The notes beneath the pieces are model-generated. The model worked only from the letters and a program-made list of their open reading frames with translations, was not told the DNA's origin and ran no database searches. From an uncultured Eubacteriales bacterium (GTDB lineage Bacteria; Bacillota; Clostridia; Christensenellales; Aristaeellaceae): a stretch of 64,000 nucleotides of DNA. The translations under genes and the position numbers were made by a program. This document shows positions 46,501-64,000 of the stretch, in pieces (position 1 is the first letter of the stretch; each line of letters begins with the position of its first letter). Location of the stretch: contig CACWZP010000009.1 in assembly GCA_902765395.1 (NCBI GenBank), positions 26,712 through 90,711 on the forward strand, in the 5' to 3' direction.

Positions 46501-49500
46501 GGCACCATCGCGGTGCTGGTGAACGACGCCGAGGCCAAAGCCAGCGTGGGGAAGAACCACAGCCTGTCCGCCGACGGCGACGTGACCGTGGCGGGAAGGG
46601 CCGTGGACAAGCTGCTCTCCGTGATCGCCAGCGCCTCCGCCGCCGTGACCAGCAAGAGCGCCGCGGCCGGTTCGCTGAACGTGCTGGTGGACAACGCCAA
46701 GGGCAAGGTCTTCCTGGATGAAGGCGGCGCCGGCAAGGGCATCGCGTCCCGAAAGGGCAGCGTCTCCCTGCTGGGCGAGACCGAGACCCGGGTCGCCAAC
46801 GTCACCGTGGCGGTGGCGGGCGGCAAGGACAAGGCCACTGGCCTGTCCGCCAACATCAACGTGCTGCACCGCGATTCCGGCGTGGAAGCGAAGGGCGGCG
46901 CGGGCTATGTCATCGACGCTGCGAAGGACGTGCTCATCTCCAGCCATGGCATGGACGTCAGCCGCGTGGTCAGCATGGCTGTGGCCGCCGCCTCAAGCGG
47001 GAACGGCATCAGCGGCAACCTGCCCGTGCTGGTCAGCCGGAACAAGGTGAAGACCACGCTGGGCAGCGTCACCGTGAAAGCGGGCGGCGAGGCGGCCTTT
47101 GCCTCCCGCCTGGACGACGTCACCAAGGCCATCGCGGGCAGCCTGGGCCTGTCCTGGAGCAGCAACGCCGCGGCGGCCACCGCGATGTTCGTCAACAAGG
47201 AAAACGAAGTGACCACCGACATGGGCGCCAGCTCCGTCACCGCGGCGGGCAGCTCCGGCGCGCTTTCCAGGAAGCTGCCGGGCGGCGAGGCCTTTACGGG
47301 CATCTACGTGGGCGCGAAGGTGGTGGACGACATACTGGCCGTCGCGGCGGGCATCGCGGCGGCGGGCAACAAGGGCCTCACCGGCAATTTGCTGTGGAGC
47401 AGCAACAAGAACGTGGTGAAGGCGGACGCCTCCCAGGCGTCCCTGTCCGCACTGGCGAAGAACGCCTCCGGTAAGGCCGTGGGCGGCGGCTCCGTCACTG
47501 TGAACGCCGCCAATGATTCCAAGCAGATCATCTTCGCCGGTGGCCTGAACGCGGCCAAGAGCGTTGCCGCTGGCGCGTCCATCGCCGTGCTGACCGCGGC
47601 CAAGGAGGTCACCGCCAAGGCCCACAACGCCAAGGCCTGGCAGGACGTGAACGTCGCCGCCAGCAACACCGACAACGTGTTTGAGATGGCCCTCAGCGCC
47701 GGCGGTTCCGGCAAGGCGGCCGTGGAAATCGGCATCGCCTACCAGTCCCTGAAGAGCAGGGTGAACGCCGTGGTTGCCAGCGAGATCGAGGCGAACAGGG
47801 GCAGCTTCAACCTGAAATCCGTGAACGACGTGAACCTGGACAACACCGCCGTGGCGCTGGCGGGCGCAGGCAAGGCGGCCGTCACCCCGGTGTTTGCCGT
47901 GAGCGTCTTCACCGGCGAGAGCAACGCCATACTGGGCGGCGGCACCATAAAGGCGGCCAAGGGCGTGAACGTGTCCGCCACCGCCAACAAGGATATGGGC
48001 CAGTACACCGTGGGCGCTGCGGCCAGCGGCCAGGCGGCGGTGTCCGGCGCGGTGTCTGTGGCGAGCCTGAAGGACACCACCAACGCGCTGGTCTCAAACG
48101 GCACCGTCATCAACGCCGACACCCTGGACGTGACCGCCCAGAGCGACCTCACCCAGGTCGGCGCCTCTGCGGCCGTCGCCGCCAGCGCCAAGGGCGCCGT
48201 GGCCGTGAACGGCATGCTGGTCATTGCCAAGGGCAACGCCCTGGCCGAGATGGACGGCGCGGCCACCCTGTCGGGCAAGGCCAACGTGAAGGCCGCCTCC
48301 GAGCGGAACATCGTGGACGTCGCGGCCACCGTGGCCGTGGGCGGTCAGGTGGGCGTGGGCGTGACCGTCATGGGCCTGGTCGCCGGCGACAGGATGGACC
48401 AGGATGCCGCCGATATGCTCACCTACGGCAATTCCTCCACCAAGAACGGCAGCAAGACCTTCGATTCCACTGCCATCATCGACAAGATGCACGAGCTGGG
48501 CATCAAGGATACCTCTGACCTGGAGGAACAGAGGGACAAGGACGGCAATATCACCCAGACCAGCCTGGCCGACGACCTGACCGGCAACGGCCACAGCAAT
48601 GGCAATACCTCCGTGGGCACGAACGGCAAGTTCGACGCCACCTCCGGCTTCGTGGAGGGCGATACCTTCGACGGCGCGCCGGACAGCAACGACGACAAGC
48701 AGGACATGACCGAGACGGCGGACATCAAGAAGGCCAGGGCCGCGGCGGGCAATACCGCTTACAGCTCTGATCCCAAGGACTCCGTGGTGGCCCGCATCGG
48801 CATGAACGGCAACGTCACCGCCAGGGGCGTGGACGTGTACGCCGAGCAGGACACCAAGGCCGACGTGGTCGGCGCGACGGTGTCCGGCGGCAGCATGGCG
48901 GGCGTGGGCGTCAGCGTGGCCATCGCCATGCTGCGCAGCAACGTGTTCGCCACCTCCCTGGGCACCGTGGACGCCAAGGAGGGCAGCGTGAACGTCACCG
49001 CAGTGTCGAAGTCCGGCGGCGTGATGCCGGACGGCGACGAGCAGGCGCGCACCGCGGCCATCAGCAAGGACTTGGGCGAAAGCGAGGACGACGAGCTGAA
49101 GGAGAGCCTGACCACACTGAAGGATATGCTGAGCAAGCGCTCCATCCGGGTCGTCGGCGTGGCGGCCGGCATCGGCAGCGCGGGCGTGGGCGCCGCGGGC
49201 AGCGTGGTGCGCACGGACAACATCACCCGGGCCACCCTGGGCGGCACCGTGAAGAACGCCGGCGCGCTGAACGTGGATGCCGCGAGTGACTACGGCAACG
49301 TGTCCGCCCTCACCCTGGCCATCGGCGGCGGCGCGGAGGCGGGCCTCAGTGCGGCCTTCGCCATGGCGATGACCAACGGCACCGTGGAATCGAAGATCGA
49401 CAGATCCGCCAACATCACCGGCGCGAACACGAAGATCGCCGTGACCAGCGAATCCGTGGTCAAGGCCAACGCGCTGTCCGTCACCGCCGCCGCGGGCGGC

Positions 49501-52500
49501 GTGGCCGGCGGCGCGGCCGGCGTGGCCATCGCGGCCAACAGCCTGACCCAGAATACCCTGGTGGACCGCGGCGCGAAGATCGACATGACCGGCGACAGCG
49601 CCACGCTCAAGGTGAAGGGCACCTCCTCCACCAAGGCCGACACGTTCCTGCTGGGCGTGAGCATCGGCAGCGGCGCGGCGGGCTTTGGCGAGGCGGCCTC
49701 CATCGTGTCGCCCACCCTCAACACCGGCATCGGCACCACCGGCTCCGGCACGGTCTCCCTGGGCAAGCTGGCCAGCGTGGACGTGCTCAACGATGTGACC
49801 AGCTCGGCCACGGCCAACGTGCTGTCCGTCTCCGCCGGCGGCGTGGCCCTGCAGGGCAACGTGCTGCTGGTGTTCAACGATACCGATGCCACTGCCAAGG
49901 TGGCCAACGCCAGCGGCACCCTGGGGAGCATGAAGATCAACGGCGAGCTGGGCACCACGGGCCGCTCCCGCCTGGCGGCGGCGGCTGTCGGCGGCAGCGC
50001 GGGCGGCGTGAGCGTCAGCTATGTGGACGTGGATTCCAAGAACAACGCCATTCTCGACACCGATAATTTTACCGCCACCGTGCTGGGCGATCTGACCGTC
50101 AGCACCGGCGAGGACGACACCCGCAAGACCAGCGCCGACGCTGCCTCCGTGGCCGCCGGGATAGCCGCCACCGTGTCCGTCAGCCTGAACGCCGCCGTGG
50201 CCCGCAACCGGGCGGTGAACAGCGCCACCATCACCGGCAAGCGCGGCCTGACCGCCGCCAACGTGAACCTGAAGGCCAACGCCAACGGCGATGCCGACGC
50301 GCGCTTCTACGGCCTCAGCGTGGGCACCGGCAGCGTGGCAGGCTCCGTGGACGTGGCCCTGAACGAGACCACCGCCAAGGCGATCATGAAGCTGGACGGC
50401 GCGCTGAACGCCAACCTGAACGCCGCCTCCGACGTGGACGGCGCGACCACCGCGAAGATGTACACCGGCAGCGGCGCCATCTACGGCGCGAAGGTGAACG
50501 TGGCCGTGGCCTACGGCAAGACCAACTCCATCGTCGATGTGGACATCGCCAAGGCCCCGACGAAGAAGGTGAACATCGAGGCCCACAGCACCGGCAAGGA
50601 CGACGTGAACACTACCATCGATAACCAGAGCTTCGAGGTGTTCAGCGCCGCGGCCATGGTGGGCACCGCTTACAGCAAGGACAATTTCAGCGCGAGAGTG
50701 AAGCTGCGCGGCGGCGACTACGACCTGGGCAAGGTGGACGTGAAAACCGACTATGACACCAACGCCGAAGCCGTCGTGACCCCGTCCGCGGCGGGCGTGG
50801 ACGTGAGCTTCGCGAAGCTGGCCGTGAACTACGCCGGCGCCAACAGCACCGCCACCGCAGGCTCCGAGCTGGAGCTGGCGGACGGCGCCAACCTGAAAGT
50901 GGACGGCGATATAGCCGTCAAGACCGTGGGCAAGGCCGAGACCAACGCCCAGGTGGTGTCCGCCAAGTACGTCACCGCCAACGTGATTGGCGTGGGCGTC
51001 AGCATCAGCGATTCCGAGATGAACGGCAGGCAGGCGGCGACGCTGCGCATGAATGGCGGCAGCATCGAAAAGGCCTCCGACCTGCGGGTGCAGAGCCTGA
51101 CTGACAAGGCCCTGGCGAAGGCTGCCGTGGGCACCTCCGGCGTGGGCGAGGACGAGGCGGACACCGCCACCGTGTCCCTGGTGAACGTGAACGTGAACTC
51201 CGCCACCGCCAGGGAAAACCTGGCCAGCACCGCGGCCATCCTGGGCAGCGGCCGGGACGCCAACACCATCGCTGCGGACAGTCTGACCCTGATGGCCGAT
51301 ACCGGCAAGTCGACATCCACCGACGCCAACGGCAAGACGACCGTCAGCCCCGTGGTGACGACGGCCCGGTCCAAGAGCGCCACCGCCACTGAGATCGGGG
51401 TGGTCTCCGGCGGCGGCCTGCTGTCCGACGCCACCAGCACCGACAGCTTCAACGTGGTGCTCAGCGGCGTGGCCGCAGACATCGCCGGGGAGGCCAATCT
51501 CACCAGCAGCACCCACACCGAAGCATTTGCAGAGGGCTCCAACCCGGGCAACTGGACGCTGCTGCAGGTCGCCGTCACGGAGATGGAGGCCAAGGTGGGC
51601 GAGGAAGGCGACCGGCAGACCTCGAAGGTCATCATCGGCGACGAGACCACCCTGACCACCGGCGCGCTGAAGATCGCCGCCAGCAACGACGGCAACGCCC
51701 ACACCGACCTGTCCCAGGCTTCCGCCAATTCCATCGTGGGCGTCAAGGTGTCCAAGCTGCCCACGGACTCCTGGTACGACACGGGCGTGAGCATCGGCAG
51801 CAATGCCGTGCTGACCAGTGATGTGGATGCCAGCATCACCTCCGACAGCAGCGCCAAGGCCAAGTCCGTCGTCGAATCCGACGGCGTGGGCCTGGTGGTG
51901 GACGTGAGCGTGATGAAGGGCAAGAACGTGCTGCACGACGAGAACAACCTGGACATCGGCGACGGCACCGAGATCACCACCGGGGACGATTTGACCCTGT
52001 CCAGCACCAGCAGCGCCCAGTTGACGGCGAAGACCGTCGTCTCCGGCGGCGGCGCGCTGGCGGGCGAGTATGGCACCGCGGAGAACACCGTGACCCGCGC
52101 CAACCGCGTCACCATCGCGGACAACGCAAAGCTGACCTCCGAAGACGGCGCGCTGAACATTACCGCCGCCTCCGGCGAGGCGGACGACATCCAGACCAAC
52201 GTGAAGGTCACGGCGGGCGGCCTGTTCCTGCTGGGCAACGCCACCGCCGAGACGAGCCTGACCGCCAACAGCGAGATCCTCGTCGGCCAGAACGTGGAGC
52301 TCAACGCCCGGGAGGACCTGGACCTGCTGGCCCGGTCCACCAGCCGCACCGCCAAGGGCGGCGTGGGCCTGAACACCGAGGCGAAGGTGGACGCCAAGGG
52401 CGCCGGCCTCAATCCGGATTCCGACGCCACCGTCACGCTGAACATGAACACCTATATCGACATCAATCGCGATTCGGACGGCAGCCGCGACACCACCCAG

Positions 52501-54381
52501 CTGATCAGCAACAACGGCGACATCAACGTGTATGTGGACAACGCCGGGCTGAACGTGCATGCCTACGCCAAGGCCGAAGGCAAGGCGGCGGCCGGCTGGT
52601 CCAACGCCGACGCCGTGGTGGAGGCCAACCTGGGCAACACCATCTGGGTGGACAGCGCCAACCTCTATCCCCGCAGGACCGTCACGTTGCTGGCCAGCAG
52701 CGGCGGCAGGGACGGCGACAAGCCCAGCTTCGACATCGAGGCCACCGCCGAGATGTACGCAGCCGGCGCCGCCTATCCCCACGCGGAGCTGAAGGGCCTG
52801 CCCTTCAACCAGGTGCGCACCAACGACGCCCGCAGGGTGGCCCGCAGGGGCAAGTTCGTCCACGAGGCCATCGACCCGAAGAAGGACGTCGACAAGAAGA
52901 TCAAGGCCAACTGCTCGGATACCACCACCGCCTGGACTCTCGTGAGAGACAGTAAAAACGAGCTCCTCAACTGGAGCGGCGCGAAGTACCGCTGCGATTT
53001 CTGCACCAAGGACCAGGGCGAGCGGACGGACGCCGCCGCCTCCGTGCGCGACAAGACCGGATTGGGCATCCAGCCCCCGCATGTCGCCAGCTTCGCCAAG
53101 GCGCTCTCCCCGCTGGTGGACATCCAGCGGATGCTGGAGGCGCTGGGCATCAGCAAGGCCCGCTACGGCGAGGAGGACTACGCCGCCGCCAGCGCCATCT
53201 TCGTGCTGGATTATCCCGTGATGCTGCAGAAGGACGTGACGCTGTCGGGCGACCAGCTCAACAGATACCGCCTGTGGACCAACGCGGCCACCCAGCTGGA
53301 CGTCCACCTGCTGCCCAATGCCACCCGCCTCTACGGCAGGCACCGCAATGGAAAGCTGATGCTGCAATACGTGGCCGAGGTGATCCGCGGCGACGTGCGC
53401 GGCGACGGCGAGAGCCACGAGATCGACATCATCACCGCCCTGACCGACTATGCGGCCAGCCACCCGGTGATCCCTGTCGGCTCCACCGGCTCCCTGGACT
53501 TCTCCACCGGCACGCTGATGCTGCCCGCCCGGGCGGACTTCGAGCTGTACCTGCATGAGGTGTCCGGCCAGTGGCTGATCGACAAGCTGGACGAGGGCTT
53601 CATCCGGATGCTCACCGGCGACCAGGATGAGATCAACGAAGCTGTGCTGAACGGCAGGGAGCTGCCCGACGGCCGGATCGCGGAGAGCCTGATCGACGGC
53701 GGCGAGCGGGACGGCTGGAAGCTGTACTGGCTGGGCGACAGCCCCGATACGGCGGCCGACCCCGACCAGGTGCTGGTGGGTCTGCTGGTGAACCCGGACA
53801 CCGACGAGGTGGACGCCTTCCGCACCAGCGTGAACATGATCGAAAGCGGCGAGGAGCCCGTGGACGTGTCGCTGTACCTGTACCGCGACAGCAAGGCCGA
53901 CCGCATGGAGATCGAGAAGTACAACGCCATGTTCTTCGACACCCCCGAGGGCGAGAAGAGCCTGGTGAAGGTGATCACCGACGTGCTGATGGAGCGCGAG
54001 CTGGAGATGCCCAAGTCGATGAACATCGTGCTGCGCGCCTATGACATCGAAGGCTCCGACTTCCCGGTCTACAGCCTCACTGACCACTTCTTCGCCCTGT
54101 GCGACGGCACGGACGGCGGCGTGAGCATGTTCGACGGCTTCTACACCAACACCTTCGACGGCGACACCTTCGACAGCGACTACATCCGCATCGAGGGCAT
54201 CGTGGACGGCGACCTGAACGTCACCGTCAAGCAGGGCCAGAACATCTGGCCGGAGTGGACCGACAAGGATGCCGCCTCCGACATCGCGGGCAACGATTAC
54301 GCCCGCGTGGACGGCGAGTGGTATCCCGCCGATGAAGCGCCCCGGCCCGAAGCGCTGCCCGACGATGCCGCGGACGCGTAG
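34546..54381 (+). CDS. Giant secreted LktA-like filamentous adhesin (6,611 residues)
   Basis: ATG 34546 follows CGGAGG; signal peptide to about residue 35. Next come Ala/Pro/Glu repeats and a 'PTETEEE' region, then a beta-roll with RTX-like turns ('GSGNDTVDV', 'GDGDDQITVDL', about residues 492-622). The bulk consists of dozens of diverged beta-solenoid repeats of the form 'VNVxxNxAxAxIGxxAxVxAGGxVxVxA', resembling the repeat region of Fusobacterium LktA-family leukotoxin/filamentous adhesins (family likeness judged by eye). Inserts include chitobiase-like 'GYKxxxV' repeats (nt 38050-40790) and an unusual helical region (nt 42215-43100). The last ~540 residues form a globular region with 'YRCDFCTKDQ' and 'LLPNATRLYG'. 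No sortase, SLH or membrane anchor is visible. Likely a cell-surface or secreted adhesin/toxin-like protein; activity not provable from sequence. Confidence 0.85.
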   Translation: MKNNMKMAKRVLALALVLTLMLGSVGGYAPGWFRALATEAAEGGEAAMPPTPDNPALEPPEAPAAPEAPAVDAAPEAPAVDAAPEAPAVDAAPEAAPGADVPVETGDAVASDVPAETETSAETDAPVEAETAAVEEPAATGDGETADPEEQPTETEEEPAESGEQPTETEEETTETEAEPTETEAEPTETEAEPTDTEEEPAEPEEETTEPEEETAIIEEGTPETEEDTPETKAEPTEPEKEPTETEEEPAEIEAEPTETEEEPTGPEAAPAQAEGLLGVQLNAAQNEVGLARDAADAAVPVVEQQTTPIPAANAGDSGTDKKEGISVLQQRIDKVLSANGRLSGTVRIILERNTIFEGNSSGENKGKIVIDAGARDIGDDFAVELVAEDAGETGTEGEGFTTINADLVIRGVKVVMKSIMMAAGKSITVRAEDAEQNKDKGGHLVFNGTANAPNELIVNVNKNSSAEIYAVDNDDVVEATTTSGAKSLYINAGDGLNRVNVNAGGGRVEIVTGSGNDTVDVNISGANNGVYVDTGSSTDYLTIVDAAQASAVQIPELDADGKPKKDEAGNPVYKKSGTYEINTGDGDDQITVDLRAGAGNMTVNTGTGGAVIDVLKGDYRSIENLDYKFNPNSTEQIKPAQSNTKITFVNEDASAVDRYTVDVNAGLAVDELRFDKGAASVYLKGKLNNRLPQGVTNPIGYIGGTPAQGFQMHVASSQDDKETAQDQDLTLKITYADPGKVNFTDALKNKKRVEVYTTGTGIFNVTANEDFTDYVIKTPVSRDIERIVVSGSTKPLMLSNLVFDAEELGDDAPYIPGVTGENGSLANLNVLIKAPTIDIARTIKAQNVRAESALGSLSMGGAFENYHNGQSLGDIAADMISVADAAEINVRSSIETAHDIALVARVKHFGSLFTLLPAALDLVNVKLARAMVNINAGADLSARGNVTAQAKIDTTIGYYVDVDGETHQVKQKQVGGPIGIDVVVNNASVNVAHGANIEADNDIILAASSDVRAYNYANYGGFFSPVALSVTAITNTVNVQMNGTLDAGRKVKLDASGSVEDETLSTYQKGVNAVGGGAVGGFVAVNVVDQVVNAVIGEHAHVTAGGDVAVYSSNVANVQTIATAGGDKMAQQSSPTVVSAIGLFKALSGILFDKFKGTFVDREAEKFVKTVTKLSASDYSIRVVEPSDDNEQGGSTTVKTKVGDKLDKAGNVATYGIIEPKANDGYKVQTVMIRYLGYDKTTGAANDHYTYEEVVKNQYGQYLFLLENADVEVMVTYAKEGAAGGTAVAADGQQQVDVNADDLEDSFELPDLFEDAAEGIAGNADDADDVAVEGGAQAEDGHAAHDLVFDSEYIKDGSIVTWKTGEDGKSLKSVRGGQKIRLIPNANKSAEDGSAVTELKSLSVVYTHTVDGNEVVETIKIEADSQGRYIFTVPDDIPADVKLYVHAEFGAIEDNSARQPAHKQLTGSLAVGVTLNKGGSRIASGSVVTAGGDVDMFGYTRTYTNTQADGTAITPKDAAQVAKEQSKPQTVQKVTYSVQGANVSMKVNGTLPGTITRDVDPAHAASVATPKLTFKLDDAYKSQVEKVSVVISYYTKINPSLSAGKRVSETVELDKTSDGEYAFDLNTTKYATVDGSTLEITFMFKDADGNLVAIEGDAKAASKFVVPNAIRTSVNQKKEAGVTTDLGRLDFHDVRYADDDTAKVKPLYYFTITPEAGYKCDPAAGGSNATATTVKSNKSVLYATWIGADGSPQKGTLTHDDTCALNEWYFKSVDGNNAVPAGALITITAVFSEDARKIVTNDNGMTIEGSDKLKGSAKLSKEAAKEGDKVTVKLTGNDGYKAAGMIAYVTSTANPSHYRELAVTLNDKGEYEFTVPHFKDDTEKLYISPRFEPKTIEMKSAGGTEIMTSESDRKAAKGQTVTIQLTDDDIKAGKKLDPANTTVTYQGENLAVDNKGRFTIPTGDGYTATELTINAALKDKDIEMKEFVSGEDKIVPASKLADPGETVTLKVEAREGYRAKAGTVKATITIQTASGTSTRQVFASWKEKDTYTLKLPTVGDGETITNIQLAAEFEPGSDGVALSMGVGVAVGVTLAENILEIQGASDVPVLDDDGKPVMENGKVKTRHIDPAQVTDNGLSMVAVSVGSKAITEAKAGYNEGDTGVAGAIAVQVAKTTTDVAVRKDAQIKHDGLIFMMAKAKQDFKVTGDASGKKDGNEAEGTGVGAGIAFAIDGLTTRGVIEDGVVFKEGSKASGITINVGHKEKDQVTARAGATGGSAWVPVAAVDVFNSEVLAEMGRLKDESGRDLNQLDVSGKVKIKASGESAKAQYNHEVTADASARGGKTAMGGAFIVTWLKNDVQALLNQSLNATKDISISAIAGDALKAVAKAAASGGDAGGEDEKGDGSADKQANSILKGAGGVAGRFGGLDGAAIKNGANNRQKAETAEQTVTGAGAFVLNVMKNASRAEIKDGVNITTKGALTVSSTNRTDATVKADASATKSDVGVGIGVAINIVTMDNIARIGNGIVSADSLAVTAEIAKAPTKVRTVTVAENETRFSNAFTEQIKEALRDLMGEDVADKVGWLTDIGSEGIGKFCQTLIDDLNLGKLFELMTNAPGDSFENFGKAIWERLKDFPKVLVQPLLEAYQEVYRSGQYLTADGTDGLMKILETVWAELSVQLPGEVVSTVKDKLFKEGLPKIGGSVIDMITDKITGKGNDGDKIKETLKDVLIDSLKGVMDKMIDNTVRAVGAQLPLLNPSNITLVQELKKKSWADLKASVIPYITTTFRTTVWDYAPVVEKIQADGFVGAIQKELRKALKESSVAMTNEAIDKLLGVMNVKFEREAIEDRHIVTTQAIAGSGAKKKSGAGSLAIAVANLNTLAEIAGGSGSVTVTGDMTVNAEEVRRVRTHSTAAVDERGEADNNDGAGDSDNANTGGGDAATTTATDPDGNVTVTTGVGGSVLSFGGMNDDESIEIEAQDGYCLEKGKLVRTYCKADGTEVVDKLDFESAKGDDGAISYWFDPMDGVDTTGMTDEEIESLKINIDVEFTELLKEIPKPTLRYETQGKEYPADKQITVSVEGRENDESGKAWGKVNDLGEITIPVEPGLKVSGIVVNGMDGISFITYGVGEDDDEIVQASANDSEEVYVFKVPAQGVKSILVTFEEDHDAEHVEQQRQAQKDRAGRTVGVGAAFTLTYGKSSVKAAIGDDEQGTSRNVTAGTLSVTASSEHEEENYATAGADPFEGTSDDIKDFALDAAVSVNILDNDVRAAIAKGGQVTTTAKPDASDDAVAPAKAEDEEEEDLPEEIDVTKGALIVSATEVGASETKASAFAAGSTTAVGASVAVNVSLSDITAEMNAAAKVSGKAVVRTHTLSRDDTWSFASAMGADIQRSLNKFSDGASTVAEKANDVTTGKIFDEKKETKGNKTNAKINDRLNDKRVIKDDGQKARDDLNVSANVMRSQNVEVDNGEDAGQGANAAKDFVNVEGGQEVDGFQNPNKKSSLRVAAALGVTVALHSATTSVNQAINAAREILVSATNAGNFNTRSTGAAMSLAKEKGKSIAAAVGISVNRNQAHATVNGNLAAADGDVTVSADLKQNLTDTYRGRLAVQSIAGAVSGKGSDTSVAGALSLLFSYGETDAIVDGDLKGNAVSVTANDKSKLAVRAGGINVSKGANVGAGVSVATIWSANTVKAEVKDGATIDANSFALKAVKAPVTWDDYRFPLSLQDLISDSSDLDDEERENVYPGLIDVHKKPGEKSYTVSINMNTYALMKLADALSFLSSKNYYTEAIAGSLVTGQADSTKPNKLNAAGSISIVRALNSVEAVLGNNVTINKGGNRAKGDVTILAQDDTTVRMIGGAVAAGSAKNSAGITLTFLYDKDEAKAVVGDNLNIKAGSVSHRAVASTNVESYNAAASVSSASQADKSIGGGLDVVLLNTIANAKIGDSATVDAGGKLDIAADSNLNLMLISVSASVAKAATAAGGTIAVLVNDAEAKASVGKNHSLSADGDVTVAGRAVDKLLSVIASASAAVTSKSAAAGSLNVLVDNAKGKVFLDEGGAGKGIASRKGSVSLLGETETRVANVTVAVAGGKDKATGLSANINVLHRDSGVEAKGGAGYVIDAAKDVLISSHGMDVSRVVSMAVAAASSGNGISGNLPVLVSRNKVKTTLGSVTVKAGGEAAFASRLDDVTKAIAGSLGLSWSSNAAAATAMFVNKENEVTTDMGASSVTAAGSSGALSRKLPGGEAFTGIYVGAKVVDDILAVAAGIAAAGNKGLTGNLLWSSNKNVVKADASQASLSALAKNASGKAVGGGSVTVNAANDSKQIIFAGGLNAAKSVAAGASIAVLTAAKEVTAKAHNAKAWQDVNVAASNTDNVFEMALSAGGSGKAAVEIGIAYQSLKSRVNAVVASEIEANRGSFNLKSVNDVNLDNTAVALAGAGKAAVTPVFAVSVFTGESNAILGGGTIKAAKGVNVSATANKDMGQYTVGAAASGQAAVSGAVSVASLKDTTNALVSNGTVINADTLDVTAQSDLTQVGASAAVAASAKGAVAVNGMLVIAKGNALAEMDGAATLSGKANVKAASERNIVDVAATVAVGGQVGVGVTVMGLVAGDRMDQDAADMLTYGNSSTKNGSKTFDSTAIIDKMHELGIKDTSDLEEQRDKDGNITQTSLADDLTGNGHSNGNTSVGTNGKFDATSGFVEGDTFDGAPDSNDDKQDMTETADIKKARAAAGNTAYSSDPKDSVVARIGMNGNVTARGVDVYAEQDTKADVVGATVSGGSMAGVGVSVAIAMLRSNVFATSLGTVDAKEGSVNVTAVSKSGGVMPDGDEQARTAAISKDLGESEDDELKESLTTLKDMLSKRSIRVVGVAAGIGSAGVGAAGSVVRTDNITRATLGGTVKNAGALNVDAASDYGNVSALTLAIGGGAEAGLSAAFAMAMTNGTVESKIDRSANITGANTKIAVTSESVVKANALSVTAAAGGVAGGAAGVAIAANSLTQNTLVDRGAKIDMTGDSATLKVKGTSSTKADTFLLGVSIGSGAAGFGEAASIVSPTLNTGIGTTGSGTVSLGKLASVDVLNDVTSSATANVLSVSAGGVALQGNVLLVFNDTDATAKVANASGTLGSMKINGELGTTGRSRLAAAAVGGSAGGVSVSYVDVDSKNNAILDTDNFTATVLGDLTVSTGEDDTRKTSADAASVAAGIAATVSVSLNAAVARNRAVNSATITGKRGLTAANVNLKANANGDADARFYGLSVGTGSVAGSVDVALNETTAKAIMKLDGALNANLNAASDVDGATTAKMYTGSGAIYGAKVNVAVAYGKTNSIVDVDIAKAPTKKVNIEAHSTGKDDVNTTIDNQSFEVFSAAAMVGTAYSKDNFSARVKLRGGDYDLGKVDVKTDYDTNAEAVVTPSAAGVDVSFAKLAVNYAGANSTATAGSELELADGANLKVDGDIAVKTVGKAETNAQVVSAKYVTANVIGVGVSISDSEMNGRQAATLRMNGGSIEKASDLRVQSLTDKALAKAAVGTSGVGEDEADTATVSLVNVNVNSATARENLASTAAILGSGRDANTIAADSLTLMADTGKSTSTDANGKTTVSPVVTTARSKSATATEIGVVSGGGLLSDATSTDSFNVVLSGVAADIAGEANLTSSTHTEAFAEGSNPGNWTLLQVAVTEMEAKVGEEGDRQTSKVIIGDETTLTTGALKIAASNDGNAHTDLSQASANSIVGVKVSKLPTDSWYDTGVSIGSNAVLTSDVDASITSDSSAKAKSVVESDGVGLVVDVSVMKGKNVLHDENNLDIGDGTEITTGDDLTLSSTSSAQLTAKTVVSGGGALAGEYGTAENTVTRANRVTIADNAKLTSEDGALNITAASGEADDIQTNVKVTAGGLFLLGNATAETSLTANSEILVGQNVELNAREDLDLLARSTSRTAKGGVGLNTEAKVDAKGAGLNPDSDATVTLNMNTYIDINRDSDGSRDTTQLISNNGDINVYVDNAGLNVHAYAKAEGKAAAGWSNADAVVEANLGNTIWVDSANLYPRRTVTLLASSGGRDGDKPSFDIEATAEMYAAGAAYPHAELKGLPFNQVRTNDARRVARRGKFVHEAIDPKKDVDKKIKANCSDTTTAWTLVRDSKNELLNWSGAKYRCDFCTKDQGERTDAAASVRDKTGLGIQPPHVASFAKALSPLVDIQRMLEALGISKARYGEEDYAAASAIFVLDYPVMLQKDVTLSGDQLNRYRLWTNAATQLDVHLLPNATRLYGRHRNGKLMLQYVAEVIRGDVRGDGESHEIDIITALTDYAASHPVIPVGSTGSLDFSTGTLMLPARADFELYLHEVSGQWLIDKLDEGFIRMLTGDQDEINEAVLNGRELPDGRIAESLIDGGERDGWKLYWLGDSPDTAADPDQVLVGLLVNPDTDEVDAFRTSVNMIESGEEPVDVSLYLYRDSKADRMEIEKYNAMFFDTPEGEKSLVKVITDVLMERELEMPKSMNIVLRAYDIEGSDFPVYSLTDHFFALCDGTDGGVSMFDGFYTNTFDGDTFDSDYIRIEGIVDGDLNVTVKQGQNIWPEWTDKDAASDIAGNDYARVDGEWYPADEAPRPEALPDDAADA
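34744..35350 (+). repeat. Low-complexity repeats near the N-terminus of the 6,611-residue protein
   Basis: Three nearly identical 27-bp units (34744-34824) encode EAPAVDAAP. From about 34990 to 35350 imperfect repeats encode 'PTETEEEP' and 'PTETEAEP'. This flexible acidic spacer parallels the one in the neighbouring giant protein. Confidence 0.88.
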
Positions 54382-58627: not shown

Positions 58628-58657
58628 TTGACAACCGGGGGCGGAATGGAGTACACT
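58628..58657 (+). promoter_or_regulatory. Sigma-A promoter of the T-box operon
   Basis: TTGACA (58628-58633), 18-nt spacer, TACACT (58652-58657). Transcription would start near 58664, just before the T-box leader. Confidence 0.72.
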
Positions 58658-58663
58658 TTACCC

Positions 58664-58951
58664 AGCTAAATTACAGCTGTAAATGCGATGAAGGCATTAT
58701 GCGCCTGGTTCGCGCCTTTAGAGAGTCGGCGGTGGGTGGAAGCCGATGGGCGGACGGGGATGCAGTCTCATGCCAGAGCAGATTGTCTGAAAAGCCAGTA
58801 AGACAATCCGGAAGCCCCGTTATCATGGCTGGGCGCTTGATGGAGCGCCGACGAGTGGCCGCGCCAGCGGCAATCCGGGTGGTACCGCGGTTTGATATCT
58901 GTCTGATCGTCCCGAAGCACAGACCATTTGTGTTTGCGCTTCGGGTTTTTT
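58664..58951 (+). promoter_or_regulatory. T-box leader, probable leucine (CTC) specifier
   Basis: Stem I contains AGAGAGTC and GGTGGGTGGAAGCC motifs; its base GGCAT pairs with ATGCC, and the specifier loop just before ATGCC reads GTCTC, giving CTC (58767-58769, Leu). A GATTGTCT/AGACAATC helix follows (58781-58808). The T-box sequence GGGTGGTACCGCG is at 58877-58889; its TGGT would pair with a tRNA ending ACCA, consistent with tRNA-Leu. The terminator is CCCGAAGC (58911-58918) with GCTTCGGG (58938-58945) and T6. Known mechanism: uncharged tRNA stabilises the antiterminator. The T-box call is firm; the specifier is inferred from folding by eye and from the LeuA-like gene downstream. Confidence 0.93.
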
Positions 58952-58995
58952 GCACCCCGGGGAATCCATCAATACATATCATAGGAGAGGACACC

Positions 58996-60405
58996 ATGAA
59001 GACCATCAAGCTGATTGACATGACGCTGCGGGAAGTGAACGCGCTGCGCTCCGGTGCGCTGACGTTCAAGGAGAAGCTGGAGATCGCCCGGGGGCTGGAC
59101 CGGCTGAAGGTGGACGGCATCGAGCTGGCGCCCATCGACGGCGGCAAGGCCGAGGCGCTGGCCAACAAGACCATCGCGGCCATGGTCTCCGCGCCGATCA
59201 TCGCGTCGGTGGACATCGCCTCCGGCAACCTGCCGGAGACATGGGAGAGCGTTCGCGCCGCCAGGCACCCCAGGCTGAATCTGCTGGCCCCGCTGTCGCC
59301 CGCGCTGATGGAGTACAGCTGCCACAAGAAGGCCCCCGCCATGCTGGAGCTGATCACCGCCCAGGTGAAGGCGGCGCGCGGCCTGACCGAGAGCGTGGAG
59401 TTCTCCGCCGTGGACGCCACCCGGGCCGAGCGCGGCTTCCTGTGCGACGCCATCGCCGCCGCCATCGCCGCCGGCGCCAACCGGGTGACCCTGTGCGACA
59501 CCGCCGGCGTGATGCTGCCGGGCGAGTTCGCGGACTTCGTCACCGACGTGCGCGCCAACGCGGCGGGGCTTGAGAACGTCAAGCTGCTGGTGCAGGTGAG
59601 CGACGAGATGAGCATGGGCCTGGCCTGTGCCGCCGCCGCCATCGCCGCCGGGGCCGACGGCATGAAGTGCGTGGCCGTGCCCGCCGGGTATCCCACGCTC
59701 CAGCAGGCCGCCCGGTTCGTGGAGGTGAAGGGCGCGGCGCTGGACATCGCCGCCAACCTGCGCACCACGGAGCTGACCCGGGTCTCCGGCCAGCTGAACA
59801 AGCTGCTGCAGCCCCACGAGGACAGCGATTCCCCCCTGGGCAACGTGGCCATTGGCGAGACCGCGGGCGTGTGCCTGGACGCCAATGACGAGATCGGCGA
59901 GGTCATCAAGGTGGTCCGCCAGCTGGGCTATGACCTGTCCGACGAGGACAACGCCAAGGTCTACGAGGCCTTCAAGCGCGTGGCCAGCCGCAAGCACTTC
60001 GTGGGCACCCGGGAGCTGGACGCCATCGTGGCCAGCACGGCGCTGCAGGTGCCCAGCACCTATCACATCGAGAATTACGTCATCAACAGCGGCAACGTGA
60101 TCACCGCCACCGCCAACATCCTGCTGAACCGCAACGGCGAGAAGCTGCGGGGCGTGGGCGTGGGCGACGGCCCCATCGACGCCGCGTTCCTGGCCATCGA
60201 GCAGATCATCGGCCACCACTACGAGCTGGACGACTTCCAGATCCAGACCGTCACCGAGGGCCGGGACGCCATGGGCAGCGCGCTGGTGAAGCTGCGCGCC
60301 GACGGCAAGGTCTACTCCGGCAACGGCATCTCCACCGACATCATCGGCGCCTCCATCCGGGCGTATATCAGCGCGCTGAACAAGATCGTGTATGAGGCGA
60401 ACTAA
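58996..60405 (+). CDS. LeuA-like DRE-TIM protein lacking the HxH metal motif
   Basis: 469 residues. ATG 58996 follows AGGAGAGG, directly after the T-box terminator. The first ~270 residues are a DRE-TIM barrel, and residues ~355-465 match the LeuA regulatory/dimer domain ('ITATANILLNRNGEKLRGVG', 'GDGPIDAAFLAIEQI', 'VYSGNGISTDIIGAS'). The catalytic signature is altered. Canonical 'DTTLRDGEQ' reads 'DMTLREVNA' (R12 kept, metal Asp replaced by Glu13). Canonical 'HxHND' aligns with 'QVSDE', so both metal-binding His are Gln200 and Ser202. The 'GIGERaGN' loop is missing. Homologous to 2-isopropylmalate/homocitrate synthases, but the usual Zn-dependent acetyl-CoA condensation seems unlikely. Function unknown; probably a neofunctionalised paralogue working with the ligase encoded next. 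Confidence 0.85.
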   Translation: MKTIKLIDMTLREVNALRSGALTFKEKLEIARGLDRLKVDGIELAPIDGGKAEALANKTIAAMVSAPIIASVDIASGNLPETWESVRAARHPRLNLLAPLSPALMEYSCHKKAPAMLELITAQVKAARGLTESVEFSAVDATRAERGFLCDAIAAAIAAGANRVTLCDTAGVMLPGEFADFVTDVRANAAGLENVKLLVQVSDEMSMGLACAAAAIAAGADGMKCVAVPAGYPTLQQAARFVEVKGAALDIAANLRTTELTRVSGQLNKLLQPHEDSDSPLGNVAIGETAGVCLDANDEIGEVIKVVRQLGYDLSDEDNAKVYEAFKRVASRKHFVGTRELDAIVASTALQVPSTYHIENYVINSGNVITATANILLNRNGEKLRGVGVGDGPIDAAFLAIEQIIGHHYELDDFQIQTVTEGRDAMGSALVKLRADGKVYSGNGISTDIIGASIRAYISALNKIVYEAN

Positions 60406-60420
60406 CAGGGAGCAGGGAAA

Positions 60421-60485
60421 AGGGAGTAGGGGGAACCCGAATCCCAAGCCATTCCTACTCCCTACTCCCTACTGCCTACTCCCTT
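60421..60485 (+). repeat. Heptanucleotide repeats and inverted repeat in the spacer
   Basis: Four tandem 7-bp units of CCTACTC (one CCTACTG) at 60454-60481 followed by CCTT. The first unit with its flank (CCTACTCCCT, 60454-60463) is the exact complement of AGGGAGTAGG at 60421-60430, so a 10-bp stem with alternative registers can form between the two genes of the T-box operon. Confidence 0.8.
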
Positions 60486-60508
60486 AACAACATCCGAGGT
60501 ATAAATAT

Positions 60509-63004
60509 ATGAAACTTTCCTTCTCCATCCAATACTGGAAATCCCTCTCCTGGCCCCAGGCCGTGGCGGCCGCGCTGGACGCAAAGCTTTCGGGCATCGA
60601 GCTGTATGACGTGAACGGCGCGATGTTCCAGGGCAAGTCCAGCCCCACCAACCCGGAGCTGGCCGCTGCCACCCGGCGGCACCTTACCAACCAGGGCCTG
60701 TCCCTGCCCTGCGTGGACACCGTGGGCGACTTCACCGACCAGCGCTTCCTGGACGAGTTGAACGAGTGCGTGGAGGTGGCCGTGAACCTTGGCGCGCCCT
60801 ATGTGGGCATCCACACCGACGAGAGCAACCAGGCCGCCTGCGTGGAGCGGATGGCCCGGCTGGTGGACGCGGTGGGCGACAAGCCTGTGACGCTGCTGAT
60901 CGCCACCACCGGCGCCTATGCCGACACCGCCCGGCTGCGTGACCTTTTGAACCGCTTTGCCGACGACCGGCTGGCGGCGCTGTGGGACATGCACTCCACC
61001 TGCGTCTTCGGCGAGGACGCCGAGGCCACCATCACCAACCTGGGCGCCTACGTGCGCCACGTGCACATCCACGACTTCCGCCGGGAGGGCAGCATCTTCG
61101 TGCCGGAGCTGGTGGGCGAGGGTGCGCTGCCTATGCGCGAGCTGATGAACGCGCTGCGCTCGGTGAACTACGACGGCTTCATCTCATTGCAGTGGAACCC
61201 GGACTGGATCGACGGACTCAACGACATCGAGATCCTGCTGACCCACTTTTCCAGCTGCATGAGCCGCTTTGAGAGCACCCGCCTGGGCCGCAGGCACCTC
61301 TACTGGAACAACCGGCACACCGGCAACTACGTCTGGAAGAAGGAGACCTTGATCGAAAAGACCTTCCCCCAGGTGCTGGACACGATGGTGGAGAACTTCC
61401 CCGACCAGCTGGCCGTGAAGTTCACCACCCTGGACTATACCCGCACCTACAGCCAGTTCCGGGACGACGTGGACGAGTTTGCCCGCACGCTGGTGTCCCT
61501 GGGCGTGCGCGCGGGCAGCAAGGTGACCATCTGGGCCACCAACGTGCCCGCCTGGTTCCTCACGTTCTGGGCCACCACGAAGATCGGCGCCGTGCTGGTG
61601 ACGATGAACACCGCCTACAAGATCCACGAGGCGGAATACCTGCTGCGCCAGTCGGACACCCACACGCTGGTGATGATCGACGGCTACCGGGATTCCAACT
61701 ATAGGCAGATCATCAACGAGCTGTGCCCCGAGCTGGCGGCCAACCAGCCCGGCCAGCCGCTGCACGCCCGCCGGCTGCCCTTCCTGCGCAACGTGATCAC
61801 CGTGGGCTTCCGCATGCCCGGCGCGCTGACCTGGGAGGATTCCCTGGAGTACGCCGCCCGCACGCCCATCGAGGAGATCCGCCGCATGGCCGCCGCCGTG
61901 GACGTGAACGATGTGTGCAACATGCAGTACACTTCCGGCACCACGGGCTTCCCCAAGGGTGTGATGCTGACCCACTACAACATCGTCAACGACGGCAAGA
62001 TGATCGGCGACGGCATGGACCTGTCCACCGCGGACCGCATGATGATCCAGGTGCCCATGTTCCACTGCTTCGGCATGGTGCTGGCCATGACCGCCACCAT
62101 GACCCACGGCGGCACCATCCTGCCCCTGCCGTACTTCTCGCCGAAGTCGTCCCTGGCCTGCATCCACAACGAGCACATCACCGCCTTCCACGGCGTGCCC
62201 ACGATGTTCATCGCCATGCTGGCCCACCCGGACTTCCCCAAGACCGACTTCTCCCACATGCGCACCGGCATCATGGCCGGCAGCCCGTGCCCCATCGCCG
62301 TGATGCGGGACGTGGTGGAGAAGATGCACATGCCGGAGATCGTCATCGTCTACGGCCAGACCGAGGCCAGCCCTGGCTGTACCATGAGCCGCACCACCGA
62401 TCCGCTGGAGGTGCGCGTGGCCACCGTGGGCAGCGCGTTCCCGGAGATCGAGTGCAAGATCGTGGACCCGGAGACCGGCGAGGACTGCCCCGACGAGGTG
62501 ATCGGCGAATTCGTCGCCCGGGGCTACAACATCATGAAGGGCTATTACAAGATGCCCAAGGCCACCGCGTCGGCGATTGACAAGGACGGCTGGCTGCACA
62601 CCGGCGATTTGGCCTGCCGCACGCCCGAGGGCAACTACCGCATCACCGGCCGCCTGAAGGACATGATCATCCGCGGCGGCGAGAACATCTATCCCAAGGA
62701 GATCGAGGAGTTCATCTACACCCATCCGAAGGTTTCCGACGTCCAGGTCATCGGCGTGCCCGACAAGGCCATGGGCGAGGAGATCATGGCCTGCATCATC
62801 CTCAAGGAGGGCGAGACCATGACCGTGGAGGAGATGAAGGCCTACGTCCGCGACCACATGGCCAAGCACAAGGTGCCCAAGTACATCGACTTCGTCGACG
62901 GCTTCCCCATGAACGATGCTGGCAAGATCCAGAAGTACAAGATGCGCGAGATGGCCGTGGAGAAGCTGGGCTTGCAGAAGGATGCGGCGATAGAGACGGC
63001 GTAA
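60509..63004 (+). CDS. Fusion: sugar-isomerase-like TIM barrel + acyl-CoA synthetase (AMP-binding)
   Basis: 831 residues. Residues 1 to about 250 form a xylose-isomerase/AP-endonuclease-2-like TIM barrel with plausible metal or active-site positions Glu31 ('GIELYD'), Asp160 and His162 ('WDMHS') and 'HVHIHD' near 185; the usual final Glu position reads Gln in 'ISLQWN'. From about 285 onward it is an adenylate-forming enzyme of the medium/long-chain acyl-CoA synthetase type: P-loop 'YTSGTTGFPKG' (about 474), 'YGQTEAS' (about 616), 'GWLHTGD' (about 694), hinge 'GRLKDMIIRGGENIYPKEIE' and catalytic Lys 806 in 'GKIQK'. The ligase half looks fully active. GAGGT precedes ATG 60509 by 8 nt. It follows the LeuA-like gene by 103 nt and is presumably under the same T-box. 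Substrate unknown. Confidence 0.9.
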   Translation: MKLSFSIQYWKSLSWPQAVAAALDAKLSGIELYDVNGAMFQGKSSPTNPELAAATRRHLTNQGLSLPCVDTVGDFTDQRFLDELNECVEVAVNLGAPYVGIHTDESNQAACVERMARLVDAVGDKPVTLLIATTGAYADTARLRDLLNRFADDRLAALWDMHSTCVFGEDAEATITNLGAYVRHVHIHDFRREGSIFVPELVGEGALPMRELMNALRSVNYDGFISLQWNPDWIDGLNDIEILLTHFSSCMSRFESTRLGRRHLYWNNRHTGNYVWKKETLIEKTFPQVLDTMVENFPDQLAVKFTTLDYTRTYSQFRDDVDEFARTLVSLGVRAGSKVTIWATNVPAWFLTFWATTKIGAVLVTMNTAYKIHEAEYLLRQSDTHTLVMIDGYRDSNYRQIINELCPELAANQPGQPLHARRLPFLRNVITVGFRMPGALTWEDSLEYAARTPIEEIRRMAAAVDVNDVCNMQYTSGTTGFPKGVMLTHYNIVNDGKMIGDGMDLSTADRMMIQVPMFHCFGMVLAMTATMTHGGTILPLPYFSPKSSLACIHNEHITAFHGVPTMFIAMLAHPDFPKTDFSHMRTGIMAGSPCPIAVMRDVVEKMHMPEIVIVYGQTEASPGCTMSRTTDPLEVRVATVGSAFPEIECKIVDPETGEDCPDEVIGEFVARGYNIMKGYYKMPKATASAIDKDGWLHTGDLACRTPEGNYRITGRLKDMIIRGGENIYPKEIEEFIYTHPKVSDVQVIGVPDKAMGEEIMACIILKEGETMTVEEMKAYVRDHMAKHKVPKYIDFVDGFPMNDAGKIQKYKMREMAVEKLGLQKDAAIETA

Positions 63005-63144: not shown

Positions 63145-63235
63145 CCCGCCCGCGGCGTACATGCCGCCGCGTACGATTGAAGATCGGGACGCCGCCGTTC
63201 CCCGATGCCCCTGGCGAGCTGGCCGGGGCCCCAAA

Positions 63236-63402
63236 AGCCTTCCCCCATGGGGAAGGTGCCCCCGAAGGGGGCGGATGAGGTCTCCACGCGTATCGCTTCG
63301 CGCCTTTGCCGCGATAAAGGCGCGGAGCCATCCTCAAAGGACCTCATCCGTCATTTGCTCCGCAGGCTGCGCAAATGCCACCTTCCCCATCGGGGGAAGG
63401 CT
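63236..63402. repeat. 167-bp nested palindrome, MITE/REP-like element
   Basis: The ends are exact complements: AGCCTTCCCCC (63236-63246) with 63392-63402, ATGGGGAAGGTG (63247-63258) with 63379-63390, and CGGATGAGGT (63272-63281) with 63341-63350. The outer two pairs also fold back on themselves locally. Such AAGCCTTCCCC..GGATGAGG palindromes look like dispersed repeats; copy number elsewhere cannot be judged here. Confidence 0.85.
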
Positions 63403-63414
63403 CTGGAGGGCCAT

Positions 63415-63795
63415 ATGCCGAGGATCACCTATTACAACGGCGACTATAAACCCCTGTCGCAGAAGCTGCGGCGGGAGATGACGCGACAGGAAAAGCATCT
63501 TTGGTATGATTACCTGAAACCGCATCCGGCCACCTTCCGTCGACAGAAGCAGTTTGGCCATTACATTGTGGATTTCTACTGTGCCAGCGCGAAGGTGGTT
63601 GTGGAGCTGGATGGCTCCCAGCACTATGAGCCCGAAGAAGTGCAGCGCGACGCCGAACGGGACCAATACCTGTCTGGCCTCGGATTGGCCGTGCTTCGGT
63701 TCAGCAATGCGGACGTCGACCAGCGTTTCGACGGCGTTTGCGCGGCCATAGACAGGACTGTTCGGGAAAGAGAAGGAAAAGGCCGGGGTGAATGA
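63415..63795 (+). CDS. DUF559 endonuclease-like protein
   Basis: 126 residues. It matches the DUF559 pattern: 'SQKLRREMTRQEKHLWY', 'FRRQKQFGHYIVDFYC', the Asp-Gly core 'VVVELDGSQHY', 'RDAERDQYLSGLGLAVLRF' and 'VREREGKGR'. The fold is of the restriction-endonuclease/Vsr type; the conserved D (in 'IVDFYC') and E/D ('ELDGSQH') are candidate catalytic residues. ATG 63415 follows GGAGGG at 63406, only 13 nt after the palindromic repeat. Extension of the frame upstream would run through that repeat and is rejected. Repeats flank the gene on both sides, suggesting it travels with them. Cellular function is unknown. Confidence 0.88.
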   Translation: MPRITYYNGDYKPLSQKLRREMTRQEKHLWYDYLKPHPATFRRQKQFGHYIVDFYCASAKVVVELDGSQHYEPEEVQRDAERDQYLSGLGLAVLRFSNADVDQRFDGVCAAIDRTVREREGKGRGE

Positions 63796-63797
63796 AA

Positions 63798-63861
63798 GCC
63801 TTCCCCAGAGGGGAAGGCAAGGGGACGCGGATAATCCAACGCCTTTCCCAAAGGTGAAGGC
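63798..63861. repeat. Palindromic repeats downstream of the DUF559 gene
   Basis: GCCTTCCCC AGA GGGGAAGGC (63798-63818) is a 9-bp perfect palindrome sharing its core with the upstream 167-bp element. A second, degenerate copy GCCTTTCCC AAA GGTGAAGGC lies at 63841-63861. Confidence 0.82.
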
Positions 63862-63929
63862 AACAAAGGGCGAACATCGCCCCGGCAGAAAGCAGCGATT
63901 CGACAAATCGGGATTTGTGAGGAACAGAT

Positions 63930-64000
63930 ATGAAAACAATATATCTGATCGGCGGTACAATGGGCGTCGGTAAAACGACGGTGAGTCAGCAACTGAAAAA
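63930..64000 (+). CDS. P-loop kinase/ATPase, N-terminal fragment (3' partial)
   Basis: Only 23 codons are inside the window: an ATG with GAGGA upstream, then 'MKTIYLIGGTMGVGKTTVSQ'. The Walker A motif 'GGTMGVGKTT' and the short leading beta strand suit a nucleotide-kinase-like or AAA_18-type protein. Nothing more can be said without the rest. Confidence 0.75.
   Translation, partial: MKTIYLIGGTMGVGKTTVSQQLK

Follow-up and report, generated by a model that had tools for sequence, protein, structure and literature searches.

Organisation of the locus

We examined a stretch of 64,000 nucleotides (the window) from contig C9 (CACWZP010000009.1) of an uncultured Eubacteriales bacterium of the family Aristaeellaceae, and we consider here positions 58628 to 63004, in which a T-box leader precedes two genes, called A and B, that encode respectively a relative of the isopropylmalate synthase (IPMS) LeuA and a fusion of a TIM barrel to an acyl-CoA ligase. 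The features of this region are the following:

58628-58657, forward strand: sigma-70-like promoter (TTGACA at 58628, TACACT at 58652, 18-nt spacer), read from the sequence by consensus resemblance only
58679-58917, forward strand: T-box leader (covariance-model scan, RF00230, 100.7 bits against a gathering score of 93, E 5e-21)
58767-58769, forward strand: specifier CTC, conserved in relatives
58880-58886, forward strand: T-box core TGGTACC
58911-58951, forward strand: intrinsic terminator of the T-box, stem CCCGAAGC/GCTTCGGG followed by six T, read from the sequence
58996-60405, forward strand: gene A, 469 aa, Pfam HMGL-like and LeuA_dimer domains, the HMGL barrel lacking metal ligands
60509-63004, forward strand: gene B, 831 aa, AP_endonuc_2, AMP-binding and AMP-binding_C domains

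A first-pass annotation of the window had proposed a T-box with a probable CTC specifier, a metal-less LeuA homologue and a barrel-ligase fusion. All three are borne out: the T-box by its RF00230 score and the specifier at 58767-58769, the fusion by the three domains of B, and the LeuA homologue by metal ligands that never occur together in the relatives of A.

The T-box leader and its specifier

The RF00230 match is the sole Rfam match at the gathering threshold within the 64 kb window. Folded freely, the leader has a z-score of -1.48, and 13 of 200 shuffled sequences fold equally well; the T-box call is carried by the covariance-model match and its conservation, not by the free fold. The fourth base of the TGGT core presumably pairs with the discriminator A of tRNA-Leu.

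Relatives were collected by a scan of species-representative genomes, in which at least 557 stretches, true LeuA possibly among them, encode a relative of A at an E value of 1e-3 or better; the best 80 were kept, 64 of which bear a title naming a ruminant host or a RUG assembly, which we take to be a rumen assembly label. With 20 more divergent loci from whole genomes the set reaches 100 loci, 97 of them distinct after removal of three repeats in A (L024 = L023, L149 = L087, L150 = L089). Residue counts below stay on 100 rows.

The T-box core, sought by pattern, lies upstream of A in 79 of 98 distinct places, namely the window and the 97 distinct loci (82 of 101 with repeats included), which answers the check for a pair conserved behind T-boxes that the first-pass annotation had named. 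No core was found at the remaining 19, of which 13 have the full 600 nt upstream, five have a short upstream region and one (L131) lies within a longer operon. The specifiers of the 79 distinct T-boxes are CUC in 72, CUG in six and GAA in one (L132), seven of them being read by hand (L021, L030, L038, L083, L132, L135 and L143: five CUC, one CUG and the GAA of L132), so that a leucine codon is found in 78 of 79 and the leucine assignment stands. The bases flanking the specifier vary among relatives, and the exchange between CUC and CUG is synonymous, as expected if selection acts on leucine. Ten relatives were scanned with RF00230 and seven reach its gathering threshold; of the others, L053 and L091 have the core by pattern yet fall below gathering, and L047 has no core. 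From its sequence, the leader is predicted to sense uncharged tRNA-Leu and to antiterminate.

Five A-B loci without T-box core (L047, L048, L050, L051 and L068) have in common a promoter-like stretch upstream of A and a conserved element around GCAAAAGAATATTTTGCACAATTTAATTTCC, slightly altered in L051; this element is possibly another form of control.

Gene A, a relative of isopropylmalate synthase

The protein encoded by A scores below all the IPMS cut-offs listed (TIGR00973: 241.5 bits for the whole protein and 126.9 bits for the best stretch in the search of its own genome, against 598.7), and its LeuA_dimer domain is well recognised (PF08502, 108 bits against 24.9). In an alignment of 100 A rows with 30 true LeuA from the same family (L080 being dropped for length), the metal ligands D, H and H are each present in 30 of 30 LeuA and are kept in 1, 1 and 2 A rows respectively, all three together in none; the alignment has gaps at GER of GERAGN and at the H..GIHQ stretch in 100 of 100 A rows, and the catalytic arginine is kept in 70. 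We presume that these aligned residues have the metal-binding and catalytic roles known from LeuA.

Conservation is distributed over A in the reverse of the manner seen in true LeuA: among 72 non-redundant A, identity reaches 77% in the regulatory domain and 54% in the barrel, against 48% and 62% among 19 non-redundant LeuA. Such an inversion is expected if leucine binding was kept and catalysis lost. We read A as a probably catalytically dead IPMS retained for its regulatory domain, and regard it as an even call that it is the leucine-sensing subunit.

Gene B, a fusion of TIM barrel and ligase

The motifs of AMP-forming ligases (YTSGTTG.PKG, YGQTE, GWLH[TS]GD and the catalytic lysine in GK[IV].K) are present in B of the window, intact across 17 sequences compared (the window and relatives, one having F for Y in YGQTE) and found again in the consensus of 62 rows, the B alignment having kept 62 of 101 rows by leaving out proteins that are not full length. 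The ligase part is 83% identical and the TIM barrel 49%. The best match of B is PRK12583, at 696.7 bits for a cut-off of 832.

In the TIM barrel of the window's B, a metal site like that of xylose isomerase (E, D, H, H, E) is broken, position 132 being A and position 228 Q. The full set of five residues is present in 11 of 62 rows of A-linked B (61 distinct) and in 7 of 7 solo B, that is, B fusions without A; these come from a set of 120 genomes of the family with completeness of 90 or more, in which 11 full or nearly full-length solo B were found and seven contexts fetched. The site being kept in solo B and mostly lost in A-linked B, the TIM barrel has decayed where A is present, and the degenerate barrel may serve as a docking site for A. 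On the tree, the A-linked B group in a single clade (support 0.90; 41 rows, 40 distinct) to which the seven solo B are sister (0.97), so that A joined a fusion already in existence. B is a candidate isovalerate-CoA ligase, a substrate proposed from the T-box and the gene linkage.

In 96 of 97 distinct loci (99 of 100 with repeats), B comes directly after A, the contig ending in the single exception, L056; the adjacency of the pair, whose absence would have refuted the first-pass annotation, is upheld. In a sample of the phylum (299 genomes), A was found in the window's own genome (G000) and in one other, G168, again adjoining B.

Oxidoreductases and aminotransferase linked to A-B

Among the 20 loci from whole genomes, ilvE lies beside A-B on the same strand in eight and genes of the 2-ketoisovalerate:ferredoxin oxidoreductase (VOR) in six. 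In one clade group obtained by neighbour clustering, A-B is flanked by genes for a branched-chain aminotransferase (486.1 bits, cut-off 307), a P-loop protein, a ferredoxin, VorB, VorA and VorG; the relatives have VorB with the beta, gamma and ferredoxin subunits in order, and in L139 VorB (529 against 399 bits, NCBIfam) and IlvE both score above their cut-offs. The P-loop protein (CbiA/ParA-like, below cut-off; L139 11157-11825 and orthologues) is constant in the VOR-ilvE cassettes seen.

In the window's clade, A-B is followed by a single-chain pyruvate:ferredoxin oxidoreductase (PFOR), often after an amidohydrolase (PF04909; L039 9939-10856 and orthologues), which lies between B and this gene in many loci. 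A PFOR is encoded downstream of A-B in 37 of the 39 loci with enough downstream sequence (L071 and L075 have none), and all 37 are nearer to the second PFOR of the window's genome, PFOR2, than to its canonical PFOR. On a tree from which L172 was dropped, 19 PFOR2 sequences form one clade apart from 30 canonical PFORs (support 1.0, branch 0.62). The two groups are fixed differently at 78 positions, five of them in the TGCSSIYGGSAPT region, which presumably borders the substrate; between the two copies of the window's genome, TGCSSIYGGSAP of the canonical enzyme becomes TGCSQAWGSAMP in PFOR2. By score and place, PFOR2 occurs in 21 of 49 genomes with A and in 1 of 71 others, this one (G117, contamination 8) having a PFOR2 fragment behind a 91% identical B fragment on a contig of 3,990 bases whose start falls within B. 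PFOR2 is a candidate isovaleryl-CoA-carboxylating oxidoreductase.

Distribution of the classical leucine pathway

Across the 120 genomes, A is found in 49 and leuB over the cut-off in 39, with both in one (G074) and neither in 33; leuB thus occurs in 1 of 49 genomes with A and in 38 of 71 others (Fisher p 3e-10, a value that ignores kinship), and LeuA over the cut-off in 2 of 49 and 36 of 71. Species with only A and species with only leuB are found inside the same genus in g10, g24, g31 and g34. A and leuB over the cut-off are nearly mutually exclusive, and the A-B operon appears to replace the classical leucine pathway.

Profile search of the window's own genome gave neither leuA nor leuB over the cut-off. 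It does carry a LeuC-like gene over the IPMI_arch cut-off (C4:79435), which together with a small subunit adjoins a putative malic enzyme and a 2-hydroxycarboxylate transporter (translations read, no profile search); aconitase-like and isocitrate-dehydrogenase-like genes lie on C17, their identities being read from translations with no profile match.

Sixteen of the 120 genomes have LeuA over the cut-off and no leuB over it (G016, G043, G059, G072, G039 and G055 are among them), and 14 of the 16 also have no A. Four such contexts (L224-L227) hold no gene of the A-B/VOR set. In G070, an open frame on C39 (L235 2412-3269) matches the leuB profile over its final two thirds, just under the cut-off, and is read as a decayed or foreign leuB.

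Other T-boxes upstream of acyl-CoA ligases

The window's genome has 16 T-box matches, and isoleucine, valine and tyrosine specifiers were read by the rule used for leucine (those for valine by hand). An AUC (Ile) T-box (G000:C26:23874, L229) precedes an HTH/cupin/ligase gene whose best NCBIfam match is MbcS and which is divergent from a P-loop-ferredoxin-VorB-VorA-VorG cassette; this ligase is split over two overlapping frames in the assembly and whole in G070. A UAC (Tyr) T-box (G000:C2:61570, L230) precedes an acyl-CoA ligase, a PaaK-like ligase (542.7 bits, cut-off 646.3) and an ACT-pair protein, whose position beside tyrosine-controlled ligases is suggestive as an analogy to the sensor role proposed for A. 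In G101, three T-boxes are found together, CUC before A-B and AUC and GUA (Val) each before an MbcS-like ligase (435.6 and 424.4 bits respectively, cut-off 850), the GUA-controlled ligase being followed by P-loop-ferredoxin-VorBAG-ilvE. In G001, a GUC (Val) T-box lies upstream of a ligase, before the A-B operon. Ile and Val T-boxes before MbcS-like ligases fused to HTH and cupin domains, with adjoining VOR cassettes, are thus those of L229, L209:3330 and 5928, and L139:3060, the ligase of L139 being assigned as MbcS-like without a profile.

The Ile and Val T-box ligases with VOR likely serve routes from 2-methylbutyrate to isoleucine and from isobutyrate to valine, and the Tyr T-box ligases likely a route from an aryl acetate to an aromatic amino acid; the acid of each ligase would be the one that yields its T-box amino acid upon carboxylation and amination. 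The preferred substrates of MbcS of Staphylococcus aureus are 2-methylbutyrate and isobutyrate, isovalerate being a poor one (PMC10026030), so that a separate ligase is expected for the leucine branch.

Extent of the operon in the window

No leuB, leuC or leuD gene follows B before the window end, as the first-pass annotation had stated. Its "two-gene unit" holds as a conserved A-B pair; as a unit it is probably incomplete, since the window stops at the end of contig C9, just past an insert, and the unit continues in relatives. Two features lie beyond B:

63204-64000, strand not assigned: sequence not common to a near-identical relative, between B and, probably, PFOR2 of contig C42
63418-63795: DUF559 gene, within the unshared 63204-64000

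The unshared sequence also holds imperfect inverted repeats and the start of a P-loop protein; the close relative has a gene for a 4Fe-4S protein there. This relative (L017 and L203, the same contig) is 97.7% identical up to 63203 and carries A, B and PFOR2 in one stretch. PFOR2 of the window's own genome is on C42, with 141 nt between the end of that contig and the start of the gene. From the arrangement in the close relative, C9 and C42 are probably adjoining contigs, and in the window's genome other sequence separates B from PFOR2.

Elsewhere in the window, 34546-54381 on the forward strand is a single 6611-codon open reading frame, in which long repetitive sequence occurs and which is a candidate for a giant surface or secreted protein.

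A proposed isovalerate-to-leucine operon and alternative readings

The leader, the conservation of the specifier, the gene order, the exclusion and the residue losses are shown by the sequences. We consider it probable that the T-box leader, A and B are the beginning of an operon leading from isovalerate to leucine, and we hold isovalerate as substrate and the leucine-forming direction to be likely. Leucine shortage would let uncharged tRNA-Leu build up and the T-box antiterminate; B would then convert isovalerate (3-methylbutyrate) supplied by other microbes into isovaleryl-CoA, at the cost of ATP to AMP; PFOR2 in the window's clade, or VOR elsewhere, would form 2-ketoisocaproate from isovaleryl-CoA, CO2 and reduced ferredoxin, and IlvE would transaminate this to leucine. 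A would bind leucine and feed back on B, perhaps by contact with its degenerate TIM barrel. We infer the substrates, the direction and the feedback.

The first-pass annotation had left the locus as a candidate undescribed leucine-responsive pathway, with branched-chain acyl-CoA salvage among its options. That option agrees with the present reading and the Leu T-box, metal-less LeuA and fusion hold, while the lack of leuA and leuB over the cut-off in the genome, the linkage to VOR and IlvE or to PFOR2, the Ile, Val and Tyr parallels and the kept leucine-binding domain had not been seen; these findings narrow the pathway to one candidate, isovalerate to leucine.

The alternative that survives best, although we think it unlikely, is that A is an active enzyme of altered, metal-independent chemistry catalysing a step of a new leucine route. 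Six barrel residues of A (E132, E135, D140, R143, E145 and D168) are invariant in 43 close relatives and leave room for a changed catalytic role; A travels with B, and 70 of 100 rows retain its catalytic arginine. However, the three metal ligands never occur together, GER and H..GIHQ are gapped throughout, the conserved part of A is its regulatory domain and not its barrel, and the route by ligase, oxidoreductase and aminotransferase is complete without an extra step.

Leucine is the usual source of isovaleryl-CoA, and in leucine shortage B could make isovaleryl-CoA for iso-branched membrane fatty acids, leucine synthesis not being its purpose. The role of MbcS in S. aureus, which is in the synthesis of membrane lipids (PMC10026030), speaks for this reading; it is nevertheless improbable, as ilvE and VOR lie in the same operons, A and leuB exclude each other, and a Tyr T-box stands before analogous ligases and Val T-boxes before others. 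An oxidative operon fermenting leucine to isovalerate is very improbable: VOR and PFOR reactions are reversible, but a Leu T-box induces its genes in leucine shortage, the ligase belongs to an AMP-forming family and 48 of 49 genomes with A are without leuB over the cut-off. Least probable of all is that A is a working IPMS of the classical pathway with leuB/C/D elsewhere, for which the LeuC-like gene over the IPMI_arch cut-off could speak; that gene stands beside the putative malic enzyme and 2-hydroxycarboxylate transporter named above, and the classical pathway was rejected on the absence of leuB over the cut-off in these 48 genomes and the active-site losses of A.

Several observations weigh against the isovalerate-to-leucine operon itself. 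B fusions occur without A or T-box core in other genomes; no core was found by pattern at the 13 loci with full 600 nt upstream; the T-box of L132 (12119-12378, reverse strand), which precedes a complete P-loop-ferredoxin-vor-ilvE-A-B operon, reads GAA under the rule that gives leucine codons elsewhere; and no linked oxidoreductase or aminotransferase was found for L140 and the g18 clade (L142-L146). PFOR2 scores above the pyruvate equivalog cut-off (TIGR02176, 1702.8 against 911.35 bits) and sits in the window's genome on another contig, the abutting of C9 and C42 being our reconstruction, while neither the MbcS-like nor the PaaK-like ligases reach their equivalog cut-offs. In G057 and in G070, the closest relative, partial leuB-like matches fall just short of the cut-off. 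In Prevotella bryantii, moreover, isovalerate raised the classical branched-chain enzymes (PMC7709123).

A wider model, which we advance tentatively and at slightly less than even confidence, is that an isovalerate-CoA ligase has acquired a dead IPMS as a separate allosteric subunit that senses leucine, so that leucine acts on one operon twice, through the T-box and through feedback, within a wider T-box regulon of ligases for isovalerate, 2-methylbutyrate, isobutyrate and aryl acetate, each induced by shortage of the amino acid rebuilt, and that this system repeatedly replaced the classical leucine pathway in one gut and rumen family. The isovalerate-to-leucine operon would provide genes for a route recognised in the rumen since the 1960s, in gut and rumen species without the textbook leucine pathway that would be fed isovalerate by neighbouring microbes. 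The T-box specifier would act as a sequence-only code for the acid of each ligase, allowing substrate predictions for many uncultured gut anaerobes, and A would be a clear candidate for an enzyme turned sensor.

Comparison with known systems

A resembles LeuA (TIGR00973) in the order of HMGL barrel and LeuA_dimer, by common descent, and differs by its lost catalytic residues. PFOR2 is a full-length relative of PFOR (TIGR02176) that differs by its separate clade, its changed motif and its linkage to A-B, and stands beside a canonical PFOR in the genome. In Methanococcus maripaludis, an acid is converted to its acyl-CoA, then to a 2-oxoacid by a ferredoxin oxidoreductase, and finally transaminated. 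This route shares the logic of activation, carboxylation and transamination, whereas it is aromatic and archaeal and involves neither T-box nor pseudo-IPMS; the aryl-acid route to aromatic amino acids in this organism is mentioned in PMC4162585.

MbcS of S. aureus likewise activates external branched short-chain acids, but isovalerate is a poor substrate and its product feeds fatty acid synthesis (PMC10026030); B is nearer to the PRK12583 subfamily. For Prevotella bryantii, conversion of branched acids to branched amino acids by an unspecific acetyl-CoA synthetase and a ferredoxin oxidoreductase (EC 1.2.7.7) was proposed and called not proven (PMC7709123); the proposal concerns another phylum and names enzyme classes only, with no operon, T-box or pseudo-IPMS.

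It has been recognised since the 1960s that branched-chain volatile fatty acids act as growth factors for rumen bacteria (PMC7356843), and rumen Methanobrevibacter uses isovalerate for leucine (PMC10658910). The closest likeness is to the rumen physiology of Allison, cited from 1962 and 1966 for the carboxylation of isovalerate to leucine (PMC7356843): in both cases, isovalerate would become leucine by carboxylation and amination in rumen anaerobes. That work, as cited there, was physiological, whereas candidate genes, an operon and a leucine switch are named here. In the open-access papers searched, at the level of listings and passages (subscription papers and preprints being outside the scope), we found neither an operon for the isovalerate-to-leucine route nor a link between T-boxes and such ligases. 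The physiology is thus old and the enzyme classes have already been suggested in print (PMC7709123), while the operon, the T-box code and the pseudo-IPMS look new.

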